Shown here: one piece after another, positions 7,654-39,070 of the stretch
Layout of the letters: each line of letters starts with the position of its first letter
Position numbering within the stretch: the first letter of the stretch is position 1
Made by a program: the position numbers and the translations under genes
From: Planctomycetales bacterium
GTDB taxonomy: Bacteria > Planctomycetota > Planctomycetia > Isosphaerales > Isosphaeraceae
Reading direction: 5' to 3'
Length of the DNA: 64,000 bases
Assembly (NCBI GenBank): GCA_027452145.1
Contig: DAIDHB010000219.1
Coordinates: forward strand, 1-64,000
The notes under the pieces: model-generated
Told to the model about the DNA's origin: nothing
Databases searched by the model: none
Seen by the model: the letters and a program-made list of their open reading frames with translations, nothing else

Positions 7654-8571
7654 TCACTGGCCGCTTGCCGCCGCGCGAAGGCGAGCGAGCGCCTCGGAGT
7701 CCGTGGTAAACGCCCCGACGCGGCGGCCGGGCCGGTCGGCGGAGTGAAAGTCGCTGCCGGCGATGCCGATCAATCCCAGGCGCGGAGCGATCGCGCGCAG
7801 GCGGCGGCCCAGGCCCGACGAGCAGCCCGGGCCGTCGACCTCGATCGCCCGCAGGCCGGAGTCGGCCAGCCCGCGGATGGATGACTCGCCGAAGTCGTGC
7901 GGCGGGTGCGCCAGCGCGGCCACGCCGCCCGCCAGGGCGATCAGGCCGATGGCCGAGGTCGCGTCGAGCCGGGGCTTCTCCACGCACGCTGGCCGGCCGT
8001 CGCCCAGGTGGAGCGCGAACGCCTCGCGGACCCCGCCCACCTGGCCCGTGCGCGCGAGATACTCGGCCAGGTGCCGTCGACCCAGCACGGCGCGCGGAAA
8101 CGCCCGGCGGATCGCGTCGAGATCGACGCGCAGGCCCAGGGCGCCCAGTCTCTCGGCCATCACCTCGATCCGGCGCGCTCGTCCCTCGCGCAGCTCGACC
8201 ATCGCCGCGGCGAGGCCGGGGTCGTCCTCGCGGAAGAAATAGCCGAGGATGTGCAGCTCGCGTCCGCGGTGCTGGCACGTCAGCTCGACGCCGGCGATCA
8301 GCTCGACGTTCCAGTGCCGGGCCTCGGGACGCGCGACGGCCAGTGCCGAGACCGTGTCGTGATCGGTAATCGCCAGCGCATTCAGGCCGGCGCGCGCCGC
8401 CGCCACGACCACCTCGCAGGGCGAGCACGCGCCGTCGGAGTGCGTCGTGTGCACGTGCAGGTCGGCGCCGGCACGGGGACGAAGGGACCCACCCGGCCCG
8501 CCTGGCTTCGCGGGCACATTACTCGGCAGGCGGGGCATCCGGTCTCGTCCCGGCCTGGCCTGCTTCGTCAT
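7654..8571 (-). CDS. PHP-domain phosphoesterase (TrpH/YciV-like)
   Basis: About 305 residues from ATG 8571; 8538 is an alternative start. It belongs to the polymerase-and-histidinol-phosphatase (PHP) metal-dependent phosphoesterases. Metal-ligand motifs appear in order: DLHVHTTHSDG, ITDHDT, GVELTCQ, LHILGYFF, AHPPHD and GSDFHSAD. The closest characterised relatives are TrpH/YciV-type 3',5'-nucleoside bisphosphate phosphatases and RNase AM, which trim RNA 5' ends; the exact substrate here is not determined. The start region overlaps the 3' end of nusB, so the two are probably co-transcribed, nusB first. Family assignment is strong; start uncertain by about ten codons. Confidence 0.88.
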   Translation of the reverse strand: MTKQARPGRDRMPRLPSNVPAKPGGPGGSLRPRAGADLHVHTTHSDGACSPCEVVVAAARAGLNALAITDHDTVSALAVARPEARHWNVELIAGVELTCQHRGRELHILGYFFREDDPGLAAAMVELREGRARRIEVMAERLGALGLRVDLDAIRRAFPRAVLGRRHLAEYLARTGQVGGVREAFALHLGDGRPACVEKPRLDATSAIGLIALAGGVAALAHPPHDFGESSIRGLADSGLRAIEVDGPGCSSGLGRRLRAIAPRLGLIGIAGSDFHSADRPGRRVGAFTTDSEALARLRAAASGQ

Positions 8572-9115
8572 CGCCGGGTGCGGCGTCGGCTCCCGCGGCG
8601 GCCGCGGCGGCCTCGCGGGCTTCCTGCTCGGCCATGCGTGCCGCCTCAATTCGGGCGGGATGCGTGGCCATGATCGCCTGGGCCTGCGACTGCAATTCCG
8701 ACTGGAGCACCCGGTCGAGGATGCCGTTGACGAACCGGCTCGACTGCGCGGTGCTGTACCGCTTCGCCAGCTCGAGCGCCTCGTTGATCGCCACCTTCGA
8801 CGGGATCTCGCGGCAGATGATCATCTCGTAGACGCCCAGGCGCAGGATGTTGCGGTCGATCGCCGCCATGCGGTCCACCCGCCAGTTGTCCGCGGCGGCG
8901 GAGATCGCCTCGTCAATCCGGGCCAGGTGCTCCTTCACCCCGGCGACCAGGCCCTCGGTGAACTCGCAGAGCTTCCGCTCCCCCAGCAGTCGGCGCTGGA
9001 TGAACAGCCGGACCTCGGCGAGCGACATGCCGGGGTTCTGCTCGACCTGATAAAGGACCTGGAGGGCGACCTCGCGGCCCCGGGAACGTCGCGTCATGTT
9101 CGAGAAGTCTCGCAT
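8519..9115 (-). CDS. nusB: transcription antitermination factor NusB
   Basis: About 198 residues. NusB binds boxA RNA together with NusE (S10) and supports antitermination and rRNA maturation. Typical signatures are RRSRGREVALQVLYQ at the N-terminus, AAIDRNILRLGVYEM and KVAINEALELAKRYS, and SSRFVNGILDRV. Start taken as ATG 9115; ATG 9097 (MTRRSRG) is equally plausible and neither has a strong ribosome-binding site. Compared with ordinary NusB (about 140-160 residues) there is an extra C-terminal tail of about 45 residues rich in Ala, Glu and Asp (AEQEAREAAAAAAGADAA). The longest ORF extends upstream to 9421 but that part looks noncoding and contains a palindromic repeat. Confidence 0.93.
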   Translation of the reverse strand: MRDFSNMTRRSRGREVALQVLYQVEQNPGMSLAEVRLFIQRRLLGERKLCEFTEGLVAGVKEHLARIDEAISAAADNWRVDRMAAIDRNILRLGVYEMIICREIPSKVAINEALELAKRYSTAQSSRFVNGILDRVLQSELQSQAQAIMATHPARIEAARMAEQEAREAAAAAAGADAAPGDDEAGQAGTRPDAPPAE

Positions 9116-22339: not shown

Positions 22340-28996
<6,657 letters not shown>

Positions 28997-29084: not shown

Positions 29085-31157
29085 ATGCCTTACGACCCCG
29101 CGCGAGCCCTCGCACTCCTGAGGCTCGGCGTCCGGGACGAATCCGCCGCCTTTCGCGACGGCCAGGAGGAGGCCATCCGCCATGTCGTGGAGGGCCGCGG
29201 TCGATTGCTCGTCGTGCAGAAGACCGGCTGGGGCAAGAGCTCGGTCTATTTCATCGCGACCCGGCTGCTACGCGACGCCGGCCTCGGCCCGGCGCTCCTG
29301 ATCTCGCCGCTGCTGGCCCTGATGCGCAACCAGATCGACGCGGCCGGGCGCATGGGCGTGCGGGCGCGGACCATTCATTCCGAGAACCGGGACGAGTGGG
29401 AAGCGGTCCGGGCGGAAATCGCGCGCAATGACGTCGATATCCTGCTGATCTCGCCGGAACGGCTCGCGAACGAGTCCTTCCGCAACGAGGTCCTGGGCCC
29501 GATCGCCGGACGGATCTCGCTGCTCGTGATCGACGAGGCCCATTGCATCTCGGACTGGGGACACGACTTCCGCCCCCACTACCGCCTGATCGAACGCATG
29601 ATCCGCGCGATGCCCCCTCAGCTCCGACTCCTGGGGACCACCGCGACGGCCAACGATCGCGTCATCGAGGACCTGGCCTCGGTCCTGGGTCCCGGCCTGA
29701 CGATCTCGAGGGGCAGCCTGAGCCGGCCATCGCTGTTCCTCCAGACGATCCGCCTGGCGGGCCAGGCAGAGCGGCTCGCATGGCTTGCCGAACAGGTGCC
29801 CGCGCTGCCCGGCCACGGAGTCATCTACACCCTCACGGTCCGCGATGCCGAACTTGTGGCGGCCTGGCTGCGCTCGCGCGGGATCGACGTGGAAGCCTAT
29901 TCCTCAGAGACGGGCGAGCGTCGCGCCGAGCTGGAAGCGGCCCTGCTGGGCAATCGTCTCAAGGCCCTGGTGGCGACCACGGCGCTGGGCATGGGCTTCG
30001 ACAAGCCGGATCTCGCCTTCGTCGTCCATTTCCAGACCCCCGGCTCGGTCATCGCCTACTACCAGCAGGTTGGTCGGGCCGGCCGGGCCCTGCCGTCGGC
30101 TTACGGCGTGCTGCTCAGCGGGGCCGAGGAACGGGAGATCACCGATTACTTCATCGAGAGCGCGTTCCCAACGCGAGAGGAGGTCGGTCAGGTGCTCGAC
30201 GCCCTGGAGGCGGCCCCGGAGGGCCTCTCGATCCCATCGCTGCTGGAGCGGGTCAACATCCGCCGCGGGCGGGTCGACAGGGCGATCCAGCTTCTCTCGC
30301 TGGAATCGCCGTCGCCGATCGCCAAACAGGGGAGCCGGTGGACCCTCACGGCGGCCGAGCTGGGCGAGGCGTTCTGGCAGAGGGCCGAGCGTCTGACGGC
30401 CCTGCGCCGCGTCGAACAGAGGCAGATGCAGGAATACGTCGATCTGCGCTCCGACCACATGGAATTCCTCATCCGGGCGCTCGACGGGCCGCCGGAGACG
30501 TTCCGCCCGCCGGACCTGCCCCGGCTCGCGACGACGCCCGACGCGGCGCTCGTGCGGGACGCCGAGGCGTTCCTGCGGCGCACGAACCTGCCCCTGGAGC
30601 CGCGGAAGATGTGGCCGACGGGGGGCCTTCCGAGGTTGGGCGTAACCGGCCGGATCGCCGAGCCGCGCCAGGCACGGCCGGGCAAGGTCCTCTGCGTGCT
30701 GGGCGATGCCGGCTGGGGAGCCGTGGTCCGCGACGGGAAATATCGAGACGGTCGCTTCTCCGATGAGCTCGTCCGGGCGTGCGTGAAGCTCCTTCGGGAA
30801 TGGGCGCCGGATCCGGCGCCACGCTGGGTCACGTGCGTCCCCTCGCGACGCCACCCCGAGCTTGTCCCCGACTTCGCGCGTCGGCTCGCGGCCGCCGTGG
30901 GGTTGCCGTTCCATCCGGCGCTGGAGAAGACCGAGGATCGGCCCGAGCAGAGGGCCATGGCCAATAGCGCCCAGCAGGCTCGTAACGTCGACGGCTCCCT
31001 TGCCGTGACGGAAGCGCCGATGCCGGACGGGCCGGTGTTGCTGGTGGACGACGTGGTAGACTCAAAATGGACGATCGCCGTTGCGGCCTGGCTGCTGACG
31101 ACCCGGGGCAGCGGGCCGGTTTATCCGCTCGCGCTGGCCTCAACCGCCCATGCCTGA
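29085..31157 (+). CDS. RecQ-family helicase fused to a ComF-like phosphoribosyltransferase domain
   Basis: 690 residues, beginning 88 bases after uvrA. Residues about 20-345 form a RecQ-type SF2 helicase: QKTGWGKSS (Walker A, Trp within the P-loop), [31 protein letters not shown] (D150), [20 protein letters not shown] and [10 protein letters not shown]. The RecQ zinc-binding cysteine cluster is absent: the region after it ([16 protein letters not shown]) has no Cys. A winged-helix-like stretch ([20 protein letters not shown]) follows. Residues about 560-690 resemble Com[40 protein letters not shown], and the PRPP-loop [13 protein letters not shown] (D655, D656) with SKWT replacing the usual TTGAT. 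The next gene overlaps by one base (TGATG), so the two are translationally coupled. DNA-processing or defence role inferred. Confidence 0.85.
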
Positions 31158-32449
31158 TGAACCAGCCGCTCTCTCCGAATTCGATGGCGATCCTGCTGCT
31201 GACCGCCCCCCTGATCGTCGGGCGCCGCGGGGCCGCGTCCGAGCTGTTGACGCCGGGCGAATACAACCGGCTGGCGCGCCTCCTGAGAGAGGAAGAGCGG
31301 CAGCCCTCCGACCTGATCGGTCCGGACGCACCTGAGTTGATCGATCGGTGCGCGGCGGTCGTCGATCGCCCTCGCCTCGAATCCTTGCTCGGGCGCGGCT
31401 TCCTGCTGAGCCAGGCGACCGAGCGATGGAGCACGCGTGCCATCTGGGTCGTGAGCCGTGCCGACGCCCAGTACCCCCGCCGGCTGAAGGCCCGCCTCAA
31501 GGAAGACGCCCCGCCCGTGCTCTACGGCTGCGGCGACATCGCGCTGCTGGAGACCGGGGGATTGGCCGTGGTCGGGTCGCGAAACGTCGGAGACGAATGG
31601 ATCGCCTATGCCGAACGGCTGGGCCGGACGGCGGCGTCCGCCGGCCGGACGCTGGTCTCCGGAGGCGCTCGCGGCGTCGACCAGGCCGCGATGCGCGGGG
31701 CCTCGCAGGCGGGCGGTGCCGTCGTGGGATGGCTCGCCGACAGCCTGGAGCGCGCCGCCCTCGTGCGCGAGAACCGCGAACCGCTGATGAACGGGCGGCT
31801 GGTCCTGGTCTCGCCGTACGACCCCGCGGCCGGATTCAACGTGGGTCATGCCATGGGTCGGAATAAACTCATTTATGCGACGGCCGATGCCGCCGTCGTC
31901 GTGAATTCCGACTTCCAGAAGGGCGGCACCTGGGCCGGAGCCGTCGAGCAACTGGAACGGCTGCGCCACGTGCCCGTGTTCGTCCGGAACGGCCCCGATG
32001 CCGGAAAGGGCAACGAGGCGCTGCTCCGCCGGGGTGCCCGGCCCTGGCCCGAGCCGGTTGACGGCGAGGCTCTCAGCGCGGCGATCTCCCGCGCCGCCGA
32101 GGCGGTCGCGGGGCAATCCGGGCAGGAGGCATTCGCCTTCATCACGCCCGCGGGAGAACCTCTTCCTGCCGAGGAGGAATCGCCCCAGCCAGCCGGGGCC
32201 GGCGTCGGCGCCCCCCGAACCGGCCAGGCCCATGCGACGCCGCCACCCGCGGAGAAACTGCTTCGCTCCGTCGGCGATATCCTGAGCCACGAGCTCGTCG
32301 AGGCCCGCACCGATGCCGAGGTGGCCGAACTGCTCGCGATCTCGACGCCACAGGCCAGGAACTGGCTCTCTGAGCTGGTCGGCCAGGGCGTGCTGGAGGA
32401 ACTGTCGGGCCCCACGCGATACCGTGCGGTCACCGGGCGGACCTCCTGA
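31157..32449 (+). CDS. DprA/Smf-like protein with C-terminal winged helix
   Basis: 430 residues; ATG 31157 overlaps the stop of the RecQ-PRTase gene. The central Rossmann domain is DprA-like but divergent: [12 protein letters not shown] (about 137-148), [15 protein letters not shown] (168-182, where DprA has SGLARGID), [20 protein letters not shown] (about 230-249, where DprA has RNRIIAGLS) and [16 protein letters not shown]. The N-terminal 100 residues ([20 protein letters not shown]) resemble the helical N-terminus of DprA. Residues about 365-425 form a winged helix ([20 protein letters not shown]). A Pro/Glu-rich linker separates the two. Canonical DprA loads RecA on incoming single strands; divergent DprA proteins also act as partners in defence pairs. 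The coupling argues for a two-protein system with the helicase. Confidence 0.82.
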
Positions 32450-34144: not shown

Positions 34145-34190
34145 GAAAACAAGCCGTGAGCCAGACCCGATGGACCCTCGACTCATGGCC

Positions 34191-34284
34191 CCCGGAAGAA
34201 AAGCTAAAAGCGCTACGTCCCCCTTTTCCGCCCGTCCCCCTTTTCCGCCCCCGGAAGAAAAGCTAAAAGCGCTACGTCCCCCTT
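34191..34284. repeat. 35-bp direct repeats, 59-bp period
   Basis: CCCGGAAGAAAAGCTAAAAG followed by CGCTACGTCCCCCTT occurs at 34191-34225 and 34250-34284, separated by a duplicated CCCCCTTTTCCGCCC-type segment. It fills the convergent gap between the DUF4058 gene and the 254-residue protein gene. It looks like an interspersed element. Confidence 0.8.
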
Positions 34285-34301
34285 CGTCTTGACTCATTGG
34301 A

Positions 34302-35066
34302 TTAGGCGAACAGTTTCTGCGAGGGTTGTTCGGTCTTCAGCGTGGTCCAAGGCGCGATCGGGCTGTTCTCGACCAACTCCCTCTGCCAGTTCAGCAGGCT
34401 GAGCAAGCGTCGCTTTTGCAGCGATTGCCAGTTCTGCATCTCGCGAGTCTGGAGCCGGCTGTGGCCCTCCCACTCATCCTGGAAGAGCTCTCCGAGGACG
34501 AACTCGAGGACCGCCATGGGCGTCGTCGCGATGCAGGGCAGGCGGGGGACGGTTACTGCATGGGGGAAAGGGGGCCTGTCATCCTCGCCTAGGATCTGGA
34601 CGTGGAAGAAGCAGCCCGGAGACGCCTCATCGGCGATCTCCATTCTCCAATGCCCCATGGAGAGGTTTTTCTCGTGGTCCCTCCATTCAACCCGGACGCT
34701 GGCATTGCCCGTCAGGTAGAACTGCTTGGGGGAGTCATAATTGTTCTTTTTCGGCTCAGGCGTGATCTCCCACAGCGAGGTGATGCGAGCGCAGATCGAC
34801 GGGCCGCCCCGCCTTCTCCCCTTCTCGTACCCCTGGCTCGGTCGGGTCAGCAGGGGTTGGTGATCGGGGATGACCCACTCATGCTGCTTCGAGACGACCT
34901 CCAGCGGGTTGTTCGCGAGGGGGGATTTGAGGCGGATGATCTCAAGGCGGCGGGAAAATGCCTGGAGGCACGCCTCGGCTGAGGGATCCAGGAAGCTCTT
35001 CGCGATGGTCAGAAAGTCATCGACTTCCCGCTTCATATCGTCGAAGCGAAAGATCAGCCCCCTCAC
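34302..35066 (-). CDS. unknown protein, third gene of the dual-GHKL operon
   Basis: 254 residues from GTG 35066, whose GTGA overlaps the stop of the receiver-like gene by four bases; GGAGG lies upstream, so this start is preferred over the longer frame to 35183. No family was recognised. Segments: FRFDDMKREVDDFLTIAKSF (helical), YLTGNASVRVEWRDHEKNLS and GHWRMEIADEASPGCFFHVQ (a beta-rich middle), RLPCIATTPMAVLEFVLGEL and QNWQSLQKRRLLSLLNWQRE (helical C-terminus). No signal peptide, membrane segment or nuclease motif. Tight coupling to the receiver-like gene suggests it acts in the same pathway, possibly as output; that is inference. Confidence 0.7.
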   Translation of the reverse strand: MRGLIFRFDDMKREVDDFLTIAKSFLDPSAEACLQAFSRRLEIIRLKSPLANNPLEVVSKQHEWVIPDHQPLLTRPSQGYEKGRRRGGPSICARITSLWEITPEPKKNNYDSPKQFYLTGNASVRVEWRDHEKNLSMGHWRMEIADEASPGCFFHVQILGEDDRPPFPHAVTVPRLPCIATTPMAVLEFVLGELFQDEWEGHSRLQTREMQNWQSLQKRRLLSLLNWQRELVENSPIAPWTTLKTEQPSQKLFA

Positions 35067-36235
35067 CTCGCCACCTCCGGGCCAGGAGGGGCCGCCTCGG
35101 GAACCGGCAACTGATCCTGCTCTTCGTCGACAACCATGGCCTTCAGTCGAGGGTGCGAACGAGCGAGCTCGACGGTTGTCCACGCCTGGCTGGCGTAGCC
35201 GGGCCAGTCATCCGGTTGGATGCGAACGACCCGATCTGGTGGGTAGGTGCCTTCCAGAACCCGATAATTCTCGTCGATACACACGATCGGGTCCACTACG
35301 CCGGCCGGGACCAGTTCCACCCCCGTCTCCTTGGCCAGCCTCGCATGCAGCTCTCCCATCGGGACACTGGCGCCATCGGCCAGCTCCCAGAGAGCGAATT
35401 CGACCCCGGACCGCCACCATCGATCGCCCGCGAAATCGGCGAGCATCCCTTCGTATTTGTAAGGCTGGAGCCAGGTCCCTAGCCCCTGGCGGAGGGCCGA
35501 TATCAGCGACCCATGCGTGATCCTCAGGCGGGCGGCGAGCCGATGGGAGTCATGGAGGAAGCAGGGATAGGGGAGGATTCGCTGCAGCAACCATCTCAGG
35601 AATAGGAGTCCATGGTTCCTCTCGGCGAGCTCCGTCAGGGGCGGCCGGCAGACTTCGATGTCGCTCAGCGCCATGGGCGTCCATGGGGGGGCCGTCCCGT
35701 CGTCCGGCGTTTTGGCGAGCCCGAGGAGGCTCAGAACTAGCCTCGTTGCCCCGTCGTGGTCCGCCCCCGGCCAGCGTTGCGGCAGCCTGCGGATGGCGGA
35801 GGCGAGCGATGTCGCCTGCTGGATATTCCGCTCGCTCTCGGACTTGAGAAACACCCACTCGAGGTTGTATGCTCGAGCAATGAGATGCGCTCGAGTCTCC
35901 GCGGGGGTCATCCAGAGCGCGGCGGGATTGCCCGTGTTCAAGGCGAAGCCGGTCGGCCTGTCCAGCCTGCCCGCATGCTCCCGAAGCACTGCGGAGAGTG
36001 CGATACCGTTGCTCGGCCTGAGTCCCAGCTGAAGGCTGTTTTCCCGGGCCTCCCAGGCGTCAATCAGATAATCGACCATCACCAGATCCGCGGTATTGAG
36101 CGTATCACCATCCACCTCCTCGGGGTGGAGCACCTCAAACCGCGCGCTGCCCGGTTCGGTATGGCGGAAAGCGGTCCTCTGGGTCTCGGGCTCATCATCG
36201 AGAACGATGACGTGCGGGACGCCGGTCTCGCTCAC
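35063..36235 (-). CDS. receiver-like regulatory protein, partner of the dual-GHKL kinase
   Basis: 390 residues from GTG 36235, 10 bases after the kinase stop. The N-terminal 135 residues have receiver-domain landmarks: VIVLDDEPETQ (D13, D14), LVMVDYLID (D55, candidate phosphoacceptor), a Thr-containing FALNTGNP, and FLKSES (K131). Spacing is longer than in classical CheY-like domains, so it is a divergent receiver. The remaining 250 residues are not recognised: LLFLRWLLQRILPYPCFLHD, DRWWRSGVEFALWELADGAS, IDENYRVLEGTYPPDR. No DNA-binding domain is evident, so signalling is more likely by protein contact. Its tight position between the kinase and the third gene points to a phosphorelay or an activation switch. 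Confidence 0.68.
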   Translation of the reverse strand: MSETGVPHVIVLDDEPETQRTAFRHTEPGSARFEVLHPEEVDGDTLNTADLVMVDYLIDAWEARENSLQLGLRPSNGIALSAVLREHAGRLDRPTGFALNTGNPAALWMTPAETRAHLIARAYNLEWVFLKSESERNIQQATSLASAIRRLPQRWPGADHDGATRLVLSLLGLAKTPDDGTAPPWTPMALSDIEVCRPPLTELAERNHGLLFLRWLLQRILPYPCFLHDSHRLAARLRITHGSLISALRQGLGTWLQPYKYEGMLADFAGDRWWRSGVEFALWELADGASVPMGELHARLAKETGVELVPAGVVDPIVCIDENYRVLEGTYPPDRVVRIQPDDWPGYASQAWTTVELARSHPRLKAMVVDEEQDQLPVPEAAPPGPEVAR

Positions 36236-36245
36236 AGGTCAGCCC

Positions 36246-38606
36246 TCACTCAGGAAACTTGATCTCTACGGCGGTTGCGAACTCGGCCGAGGGCTCGACG
36301 AATCGGATCGTCGCCCCGTACTGCTCTAGGAGGTCCCTCGTGATGGTGAGTCCCAGTCCCATCCCCTGACCGAGCGTGCTATCCACCTCGGTCGTCGTCG
36401 ACTCGAACGGCAGGAACCATCGCTCCGCTTCGGCCAGGTCGACCGACGCCCCTGTGTTCTCCAGGATGACGACAGACCCCCCGTTGCTCAGGTCCCCGCC
36501 ACGAGCCCCGATCACGCCTCGCTCTCCGGACGCCTTGATCGCGTTGGTCAGGAGGTTCGAGAAAACGACGGTCAGCTCTGCCGGGAACATTGGAGGGGAT
36601 TTCAGGTGCGCGGGGATGTCATTGTTGAGTTGGATGCCCCGACGTTCGATAGCGGGCATGACCAACTTCGCCGCCGCGTCGAAGCGCTCGCCGAGCCGCT
36701 GCCTGCTCCTCCGTCGGCGGGCATCGGGAGAGGTGATGTCGACCAGGTAGGCCGCTTGGCGTTCGATCTGTTGCCGCATGTCGCCGAGGGACTGATAGAC
36801 GTCCGAAAGTCGCTTCTTCGCCTCCCCGCGAATCGACGGGTCCGAACGGAGCCGGTCGACGGCCTGATGAACTGCGACCGCCATGCCGAGCAGGCCGCGG
36901 ATCTCGTGCACGAAGCTGGCCATCTGCGTGCCGAGAGAAGCCAGAACCCGCAGCATCGCCGCCGAGTCCTGGACCCGTGCGGCCGACGAAGCCAGTTGAT
37001 CGAGGGCCGCACGAGTTGTCTCCAAGCGGCTATCGACCTGCACCTTGTCCCCGCCGGAGATCAGCAGCTGTCGCGCGTCGCGGATCGATGCCAACGCCTG
37101 GGCCGTGGCATCGGCGAGCGTGGGCGTTGGTCGGTTGTCCCTGAGCTGAGGCTCTTCGACGGCCGCTCCCCTCGGTCGCTCGACCTCCTTAACCTCCGCC
37201 TCGACCAGGGGCCGGGGCGGTGCCTGCTCCTGTCGGGCCTTTTCTCGCTCTTCTCGGATGCGGATCCGCGCGGGCGCCTTCGCCGCCGCCCGGGTCCTGG
37301 TCAGCAGGTCGATCCCCCGGCGGACGATTTCCCACAAGGTGTCGAACGCCCGATCCGCGACAAACCCCTCGCGATTGACCAGCATCCGGAGCGACGGGGC
37401 ATCCTCCTGGGTCAGGAATACCGCGCCCGTATATGAGCTGTTCGGGAGGACCGAGAGCTGCCAATCGCCCGCATCGCCGTCGCTCTCCACCAGGCCCTCG
37501 AAAACCTCGTCCGTCTTCCAACTCCTCCGCGCGACGTCGGCATCGATTCTGAGCCAATCGTCGCCGGGGTCGCCGTACGGCAGGACCCGGAACCCCTCGA
37601 GATAGACTCTGACGCCGCTCATCTGCCTTGACCACCGAAGCAGTGCCTCCTTGCGAATCTGCTCGTCCCGGGCCAGGATCCGAGCCTGGAAGAACGGTCC
37701 TTCCTGCGGGTAGGGGTGGGGGTGCCGGAACTTCCGACGCCGCGCCTCGGGGTACGCTTTCAAGGTCGATTTGGCCGGCGTGATCGAGTAGTGGACGACT
37801 CCCTTCTCGCTTTTCGCATCGATCTCCAGCACCCAGTTGGTCGCATCTACCAGGGCGTCCCAGTAGCTGTCTCCTTCGCTGAAGTCGCCTTCCAGACGGA
37901 TATCACACCCGGGATCGTCGCTATTCGAGTCCCTCATTTGGGGCACGGCGAAGAGGGAGGAGGCCGGAACGACCCGGGTCGGTAGCTGCTGCTTCAGCAC
38001 TTCGGGGACCTGGAACGACCTGCATTCGTTGACGAACCTCAGGCGTTCTTTGTCAGACCAGGCGCGGCGGAGTCGGCGTAGGATGATAACCGTCCCAGGC
38101 TTCGTGGCCTTGCCAAGGTGGGCGGTGTCGAGGGTGACCTCATCCTTCAGTTGTGAGAGGGTTTCTTTCTCCTCGATCTTCTCCCAGTCGATCCTGGCTA
38201 GCAGGGATTCCCTCGAGGTCTTTGAAGGATCGCCGCAAACAGAATAGACCTCCATCAACTGCGCCAGCTTGTGGGCCGCGAGTCGCCCGATGCCCTTCGA
38301 GCCGGTGTAGCGACGCCGGAAGAATCGCGAGCGGCGAGCTCCCCCCTCTTTGAACCGCGAAGCGATCCTGAGGAACCCCTTCTGGAACTGGTCGGCATCC
38401 ATTCCGGAGCCGTTATCGCGGACGACGATCTCACCCCGCTCGCGAGAACTCAGATTAATGGCGGTGACGACGATCTCCGTCGCATCGGCGTCGTAGGCGT
38501 TCTTGATCAGCTCGAGCAGGGCGGTGGAATCGCGGCCCACCAGGAGTTCGCCGAGTTCGCGGAAGACGTGCGTGTCGACGGTAAAGGTCGGATTCGATAG
38601 TGGCAT
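36246..38606 (-). CDS. sensor kinase with two GHKL ATPase modules
   Basis: 786 residues from ATG 38606. The first module (residues about 10-200) is Hsp90/MutL/MORC-like: TALLELIKNAYDADATEI (E32, N36, D39), RDNGSGMD (D64) and TGSKGIGRLAAHKL. Residues about 200-440 match the expected middle domain of such ATPases (RWSRQMSGVRVYLEGFRVLP). A charged linker, rich in Glu and Arg, leads to a histidine-kinase core: H-box MASFVHEIRGLLGM (H567), N-box VVFSNLLTNAIKASGERG, and G-box STLGQGMGLGLTITRDLL at about 745. There is no membrane segment, so it senses a cytoplasmic signal. The first gene of a three-gene operon with a receiver-like protein. The architecture is seen in predicted immune and conflict genes, but I know no characterised example. 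Confidence 0.82.
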   Translation of the reverse strand: MPLSNPTFTVDTHVFRELGELLVGRDSTALLELIKNAYDADATEIVVTAINLSSRERGEIVVRDNGSGMDADQFQKGFLRIASRFKEGGARRSRFFRRRYTGSKGIGRLAAHKLAQLMEVYSVCGDPSKTSRESLLARIDWEKIEEKETLSQLKDEVTLDTAHLGKATKPGTVIILRRLRRAWSDKERLRFVNECRSFQVPEVLKQQLPTRVVPASSLFAVPQMRDSNSDDPGCDIRLEGDFSEGDSYWDALVDATNWVLEIDAKSEKGVVHYSITPAKSTLKAYPEARRRKFRHPHPYPQEGPFFQARILARDEQIRKEALLRWSRQMSGVRVYLEGFRVLPYGDPGDDWLRIDADVARRSWKTDEVFEGLVESDGDAGDWQLSVLPNSSYTGAVFLTQEDAPSLRMLVNREGFVADRAFDTLWEIVRRGIDLLTRTRAAAKAPARIRIREEREKARQEQAPPRPLVEAEVKEVERPRGAAVEEPQLRDNRPTPTLADATAQALASIRDARQLLISGGDKVQVDSRLETTRAALDQLASSAARVQDSAAMLRVLASLGTQMASFVHEIRGLLGMAVAVHQAVDRLRSDPSIRGEAKKRLSDVYQSLGDMRQQIERQAAYLVDITSPDARRRRSRQRLGERFDAAAKLVMPAIERRGIQLNNDIPAHLKSPPMFPAELTVVFSNLLTNAIKASGERGVIGARGGDLSNGGSVVILENTGASVDLAEAERWFLPFESTTTEVDSTLGQGMGLGLTITRDLLEQYGATIRFVEPSAEFATAVEIKFPE

Positions 38607-38920
38607 TCCAACCGCCCCGCCGCCGTGACGTATTTCACGGGCACCAGCCTGCCGAAGGATGGCGACACGCCTCCGCCCCTAGTCTACCATCTCCGCCGCC
38701 CGAAAGCGTTACCAGGCAGGCCCCATCGACACGGGGGCAATATTGCGGTTCCTCCTGGGGAAGTCAGGGCTTGCGCCATCGCGCCGAGCCGAGGCAATGC
38801 CGGGGCGACGGCCAACGCAGACCGGACACCTCTAACCAAAATGCGCCCTATCCGTCATCACCCGACCCGACTAGCCGCCGTTCCATCGGCAATCATCAAA
38901 TATGTACATTTATCTGCTCA

Positions 38921-39070
38921 GACCCCGAGGGTCCGGACCCCGAGCGGCCCCCGGGGACCCCGAGGGTCAGACCTAATTTCTGGGGACCCCGAGGGTCGGG
39001 ACCCCGAGGGTCAGACCCGGGACCCCGAGGGTCGGGACCCCGCGGACCCCGATGGTCAGACCTAATTTCT
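38921..39070. repeat. cluster of GACCCCGAGGGTC units
   Basis: GACCCCGAGGGTC occurs exactly at 38921, 38956, 38985, 39000 and 39021, with near copies at 38936, 39036 and 39045. A longer unit continuing into CAGACCTAATTTCT appears at 38957-38981 and 39046-39070, 24 of 25 bases identical. The unit is almost self-complementary. Similar GGGGTCAGACC-type sequences are common REP elements. Confidence 0.8.

Follow-up and report, generated by a model that had tools for sequence, protein, structure and literature searches.

A conserved three-gene operon of a planctomycete encoding a paraMORC-type ATPase fused to a histidine kinase, a receiver-like protein and an undescribed companion protein

The operon and its three proteins

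The DNA studied here, called the window, is a stretch of 64,000 nucleotides from a Planctomycetales bacterium of the family Isosphaeraceae (assembly GCA_027452145.1, contig DAIDHB010000219.1, positions 1 to 64,000 of the forward strand). It carries an operon of three genes encoding a paraMORC-type ATPase fused to a histidine kinase (gene 1), a response-regulator-like protein (gene 2) and a protein of an undescribed family (gene 3) (Table 1). This three-gene unit is real and conserved. A preliminary description of this DNA, made from the sequence alone, had named the co-occurrence of homologues of the three genes and the conservation of H567 (gene 1) and D55 (gene 2) as the points that would decide its proposal. 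The same three-gene form was found in 21 loci, the window included, and both residues proved to be conserved, as detailed below.

The three open reading frames (ORFs), their lengths and frames, the 10 bases between the gene 1 stop codon and gene 2, and the overlap of the gene 3 GTG with the gene 2 TGA as GTGA had all been given exactly in that description. The highest 19-residue hydropathy means are only 1.16, 1.10 and 1.42 for genes 1, 2 and 3, respectively, so none of the proteins shows a membrane segment, in agreement with the cytoplasmic system previously suggested.

Table 1. Features of the operon and its surroundings in the window
Feature	Position	Strand	Basis or remark
Gene 1, paraMORC-type ATPase fused to histidine kinase, 786 aa	36246-38606	minus	ORF and Pfam
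Gene 2, response-regulator-like protein, 390 aa, GTG start	35063-36235	minus	ORF and predicted fold
Gene 3, undescribed family, 254 aa, GTG start	34302-35066	minus	ORF; kept in 21 loci
Short repeat directly after gene 3	34187-34285		At the site of the methyltransferase gene in the relative L017
PsyrT-type RecQ-like helicase (context, outside the operon)	29085-31157	plus	PADLOC, E 2.3e-265
PsyrA-type DprA-like protein (context, outside the operon)	31067-32449	plus	PADLOC, E 9e-127

Gene 1 matches two Pfam ATPase families, HATPase_c_3 (residues 28-150, E 4.6e-19) and HATPase_c (residues 677-785, E 8.3e-20), and also HATPase_c_5 weakly. The N-terminal GHKL ATPase (residues ~8-200) carries E32, N36, D64, G66 and G68, which are invariant among the alignable kinases, indicating intact ATP motifs. 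A middle part (~200-440) occupies an S5-like position, with a conserved region at ~330-415 where S5 is expected, and is followed by a linker, a DHp domain with H567-E568 and a CA domain (~650-785). Across the whole stretch of these two domains, the profile of the kinases fits solved DHp+CA structures (E 9.5e-26). H567 is kept in 75 of the 75 kinases that can be aligned there, among 88 related loci, and the asparagines N684/N688 and the glycines G748/G750/G752 are invariant among the kinases alignable at those positions. The "complete histidine-kinase core" of the preliminary description therefore stands for H567, the N box and the G2 box (748-GMGLG), but not for the G1 box (717-NTGAS), which is degenerate: the sub-clade of the window has N-x-G-x-[SAK], the window itself N-x-G-x-S, instead of the usual D-x-G-x-G. 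Kinases of the AgrC type (HPK10) are active without a canonical G1 box, which, together with the HATPase_c_5 match, makes kinase activity of gene 1 plausible from its sequence. In PADLOC, no model covered the whole kinase and only the N-terminal part matched REase_II, weakly. A second copy in the host genome was considered, and none with both modules was found.

Gene 2 has no significant Pfam family. Its predicted model (predicted local distance difference test, pLDDT, 83) shows a (beta-alpha)5 fold with a receiver domain at residues 4-156, over which it aligns with solved receivers at a VIA-align Z of ~12; the profile of the family matches solved receiver structures as well. In the predicted fold D13-14, D55, T101 and K131 would lie at the ends of beta1, beta3, beta4 and beta5, as in receivers, which agrees with the landmarks DD13-14, D55 and K131 that had been picked out from the letters. 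Regarding their conservation in class A (the loci with this three-gene form, see below), D14 and D55 are kept in 20 of 20 receivers, the D13 position is either D or E, and K131 is kept in the close group and not in all distant members. The C-terminal domain (~186-304) is helical and conserved, with the motif W..L.....P..L....A..L....Y.G...RWW, and gave no fold match marking it as DNA-binding, a part that was barely tested. A zinc-ribbon-like motif (C-x2-C ... H-x2-C) is seen in the C-terminal part of the receivers of L071, L074, L117 and L005, and the window protein lacks it.

Gene 3 belongs to a family in which P150, H155 and R175 are invariant and H139 and Q157 are present in nearly all members. 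As the preliminary description had stated, it is not recognised: no match was found in Pfam, PADLOC, NCBIfam or PHROGs. The best VIA match (Z 5.3 to coproporphyrinogen oxidase, root-mean-square deviation 4.9 over 146 residues) is at chance level, and so are all matches of the family profile to solved structures. Structure prediction, which had been recommended for the two unrecognised parts, yielded a receiver fold for gene 2 and no fold for gene 3. A possible resemblance to DUF2290 was not supported, as 15 members gave no such match even with E values up to 10. One homologue lies on a haloarchaeal Halomicrobium plasmid (L005, 10355-11164) and is missing from the gene table of the plasmid collection.

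Relatives, co-inheritance and genomic setting

Gene 2 diverges fast, and with it as the sole query next to nothing came up in the phylum, in the plasmid collection or among viral contigs; searches with gene 3 only failed as well. Relatives were reached through the kinase profile, which led to 88 non-redundant kinase loci from plasmids, genomes and viral contigs. These loci were sorted by profile; a scan of genome contigs with the receiver profile gave at least one locus. A set of 15 sequences served to train the gene 3 profile, which independently picked up six more class A loci (L065, L067, L069, L071, L082 and L117).

Class A comprises 21 loci, including the window, with a long receiver (~336-390 aa) and a member of the gene 3 family. 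Among its members are loci in Rhizobium, Paraburkholderia and Hymenobacter, in an archaeon, on viral contigs and in a genome of the same family as the window (L017). An Eco57I-type DNA methyltransferase (NPPY/NPPF) adjoins 20 of these 21 loci, and the window is the sole exception. Class B has 17 loci, whose receivers are short (209-232 aa) and lack the long output domain; the gene after the receiver encodes an HNH protein in 14 of them and a metallo-beta-lactamase-fold protein in 3 (motif identified by eye). The same kind of methyltransferase as in class A is present in 16 of the 17. The class A gene 3 and the class B proteins of this slot never occur together in one locus. The metallo-beta-lactamase-fold proteins, found in L095, L099 and L107, look ComEC-like by eye and would be a further kind of effector. 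Class C, with 33 loci, has a C5 methyltransferase, often Vsr, and a receiver usually of 400-465 aa.

Two actinobacterial loci, L002 and L011, keep the methyltransferase, the kinase and a long receiver with a different family after it, and 15 of the 88 loci were left unclassified. The slot after the receiver in these Clavibacter/Galbitalea loci holds one or two paralogous proteins (L002, 10142-10723; L011, 9145-10385). Their identification as PIN nucleases was rejected, as the likeness is by eye only and the L011 proteins have no Pfam match. The third gene of a Mycolicibacterium locus (L008) was likewise dropped as a gene 3 relative, not being clearly related. In a remote locus of the same phylum (L025), the receiver gene appears as two ORFs in different frames (7685-8700), both matching the receiver profile, which may be real or an assembly error.

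The closest relative of the operon is L017, with 59% identity in the kinase, 50% in the receiver and 49% in gene 3. There, the Eco57I-type methyltransferase gene follows gene 3, overlapping it by ATGA, an arrangement that may represent the state of the window operon before the loss of its methyltransferase. In the window this place is taken by the short repeat and a DUF4058 gene. The repeat consists of two near-identical copies of 30-40 bases, GGGGGACGTAGCGCTTTTAGCTTTTCTTCCGGGGGC, with partial copies on contigs C184 and C11 of the host. The methyltransferase, standing beside nearly every relative and missing in this copy, is the strongest clue and had been overlooked in the preliminary description. 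Furthermore, the same gene order is kept in other phyla at 23-41% kinase identity, so the arrangement is far beyond chance.

Pairwise distances in class A are strongly correlated between kinase and receiver (0.93), kinase and gene 3 (0.85) and receiver and gene 3 (0.88), and none of 2000 Mantel permutations reached these values. The correlation of the methyltransferase with the three genes is only 0.47-0.53. These comparisons show that kinase, receiver and gene 3 travel as one unit, with the methyltransferase being swapped more freely. The order from kinase to receiver proposed in the preliminary description is supported as well.

Concerning its setting, the operon has a GC content of 64%, against 69-72% in the neighbouring genes, and gene 2 is missing from all four genomes of the same genus that were examined. 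Both features fit a recent acquisition. Moreover, a PsyrT and a PsyrA model match genes adjoining the operon, which marks this region of the window as a defence island. Defence genes also accompany relatives, with BrxL (BREX) at L011, SIR2 at L025 and Piwi (pAgo) at L006. Together with the DNA methyltransferases, these neighbours turn the defence role that had been suggested as possible into a probable one.

Other features of the surroundings are recorded here as observations. The two frames of the PsyrTA-like pair (29085-32449, plus strand) overlap, and the C-terminal end of the helicase is phosphoribosyltransferase-like. A single ORF of 2218 aa with duplicated UvrA (excinuclease ABC subunit A) modules lies at 22340-28996 on the plus strand, and tandem-like repeats of CTCGGGGTCC are located upstream of the kinase gene (38880-39070).

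A proposed restriction-type module run by phosphorelay

Because the relatives almost always lie beside a DNA methyltransferase, the operon is probably a variant of a little-studied form of DNA-restriction defence, with phosphorylation controlling the activity of a DNA-attacking partner. On balance we favour, with moderate confidence, a mobile module for restriction-type defence that is controlled by a phosphorelay and in which the receiver licenses the gene 3 effector. The MORC-like ATPase and the S5-like part would form an ATP-driven DNA clamp that samples incoming DNA and tests it for the mark of the partner methyltransferase or for another foreign feature. Recognition would lead to autophosphorylation at H567, the phosphate would pass from H567 to D55 of gene 2, and phosphorylated gene 2 would contact and license gene 3, which could then attack DNA or another essential target. 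The signal sensed, the phosphotransfer, the output by protein contact and the action of gene 3 as a nuclease are what we infer from the conserved residues and the gene neighbourhoods. The best guess for gene 3, based on its position, is an effector and possibly a nuclease, as its slot holds HNH or metallo-beta-lactamase-fold proteins in class B.

The receivers also bear on how the signal would leave the pair. Those of classes A and C are long, with extra C-terminal domains, and in gene 2 the stretch ~230-250 looks like a helix-turn-helix by eye. The pair could then be a regulator of restriction-modification expression that senses methylation or nucleotide state, with gene 2 as a DNA-binding transcription regulator tuning the levels of methyltransferase or effector, which is near to a speculation already published (PMC8011034). 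However, class B receivers have no comparable output domain and show the same gene order, and no fold match makes the C-terminal domain of gene 2 DNA-binding, although that part was barely tested. We regard such a regulator as unlikely. Since class B receivers are little more than a receiver, the signal would rather be passed by protein contact than by transcription.

Another explanation concerns gene 3, which could be an adaptor or specificity subunit, the destruction being carried out by the MORC-like ATPase complex or by other proteins and the receiver gating the assembly. No nuclease fold or motif was found for gene 3, and at a Rhizobium locus (L003) a nuclease is encoded separately, by the next gene. 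On the other hand, the gene 3 slot exchanges with HNH and metallo-beta-lactamase-fold proteins, and a Pro/His/Arg set that never varies, together with a second His kept in almost all members, does not favour an adaptor. This explanation appears quite improbable. That the operon is a decaying remnant, kept passively without function after the loss of the methyltransferase, would fit its being the only class A copy of 21 without this gene, with a repeat and a DUF4058 gene in its place, but is very unlikely given three intact frames, all signature residues kept and a distant Eco57I-type methyltransferase on another host contig (C262, 28% identity).

Several observations weigh against the favoured module. 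The first concerns the methyltransferase: the whole window holds none of the kind seen in the relatives (best score 2.8 bits), so the restriction link here rests on the relatives. Regarding gene 3, the model has a pLDDT of 59 with no significant fold match (best Foldseek E 0.75), no catalytic motif was recognised, and D141, present in 19 of the 21 family members, is R in the window and in L017. Moreover, the nuclease that follows gene 3 in L003 is of the GIY-YIG type, and gene 3 may therefore not be the nuclease itself there. In the kinase, the adenine-binding Asp is gone from the G1 box and replaced by Asn in the sub-clade. The loci were gathered by kinase similarity and are mostly fragments of prophages or plasmids; many of the viral contigs, too, are fragments or prophages. 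Finally, no experiments on such a kinase/receiver pair were found in the open literature.

If the phosphorelay module exists as proposed, the window copy may work with a methyltransferase in trans, may respond to another cue, or may belong to an operon that is decaying. Licensing of gene 3 by the phosphate on D55 would explain how an effector is tolerated without a neighbouring methyltransferase. We tentatively suggest, as a possibility short of an expectation, that gene 3 is the first of a new restriction-effector family gated by two-component phosphorylation, where a soluble kinase with a MORC-like clamp reads the DNA and the receiver passes the signal directly to the effector; the phosphorelay would then serve as a safety catch on restriction. 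No restriction system is known to us whose cutting depends on a phosphorelay. MORC-type ATPases are also chromatin silencers in eukaryotes, and the proposal, if true, would link them to DNA sensing and would give the published family a defined input and output. The comparison of classes A to C makes the model testable, as it sets a common kinase/receiver core against an exchangeable methyltransferase and effector.

Comparison with known systems

The preliminary description knew of no characterised system of this composition. This holds for experiments only. The kinase/receiver pair had already been predicted to be a two-component system linked to restriction-modification (PMC8011034), and the N-terminal module had been described under the name paraMORC (PMC2292703). 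Bellieny-Rabelo et al. (2021) defined the families HEF_HK (PF19191) and Response_reg_2 (PF19192), which are linked in 91.6% of cases over 644 regions (PMC8011034). These kinases are soluble, mostly with an N-terminal HATPase_c_3, and the pair is overrepresented around type II restriction-modification genes, chiefly those for C5 methyltransferases and Vsr (PMC8011034). Signalling cascades that control restriction-modification were put forward there as a speculation. The window operon shares with this pair the HATPase_c_3 module, the DHp His followed by Glu/Asp, the C-terminal HATPase_c, the solubility, the adjoining receiver-like gene with D-D, D and K and, in its relatives, the link to restriction-modification. 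It differs in that the published set has mainly C5 methyltransferases and Vsr, whereas class A has Eco57I-type methyltransferases, and in that the third-gene family of class A is not described there. The restriction-modification neighbourhood of the published pair is present at 20 of the 21 class A loci and absent from the window, where no Eco57I-type methyltransferase lies. The three window proteins gave no match to PF19191 or PF19192 at E up to 1. None of 16 class A receivers matched PF19192, the best value in any relative was E 0.46, and its cut-off was passed by none of 37 records of classes A to C, class C included. Much as they define the pair, the two published models thus capture this radiation only in part.

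The paraMORC families were described in restriction-modification operons, where paraMORC1 keeps its motifs intact, carries an extension at the C-terminal end and has HNH proteins in its neighbourhood (Iyer et al. 2008, PMC2292703). Gene 1 resembles paraMORC1 in the N-terminal module, with its GHKL ATPase and putative S5-like part, and, in its relatives, in the restriction-modification neighbourhoods. In contrast, that work did not recognise a histidine kinase in the extension and identified no receiver partner (PMC2292703). The N-terminal 180 residues also match restriction enzymes of the BbrUII/HgiDII type (NCBIfam NF050001, E 7.5e-25; PADLOC REase_II), but the NF050001 score is 87.5 against a cut-off of 550, and a histidine kinase replaces the remainder of the enzyme.

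Among HisKA-type kinases and receivers, the profiles match DHp+CA structures of the ThkA/HK853/ZraS type and receiver structures. The window kinase differs from them in being soluble, in having a second ATPase as its input domain and in its NxGxS G1 box, and gene 2 differs from classical receivers in a C-terminal domain without a recognised fold. In GHKL-Shedu (VcSduA, PMC12137116), a phage-defence protein, a nuclease is likewise under the control of a GHKL ATPase, the nuclease of the window system being only predicted; GHKL-Shedu is, however, one fused polypeptide without histidine kinase or receiver. Taken together, the best reading of these sequence comparisons is that the three-gene unit represents a variant of the published restriction-linked two-component family, extended by an undescribed companion protein.

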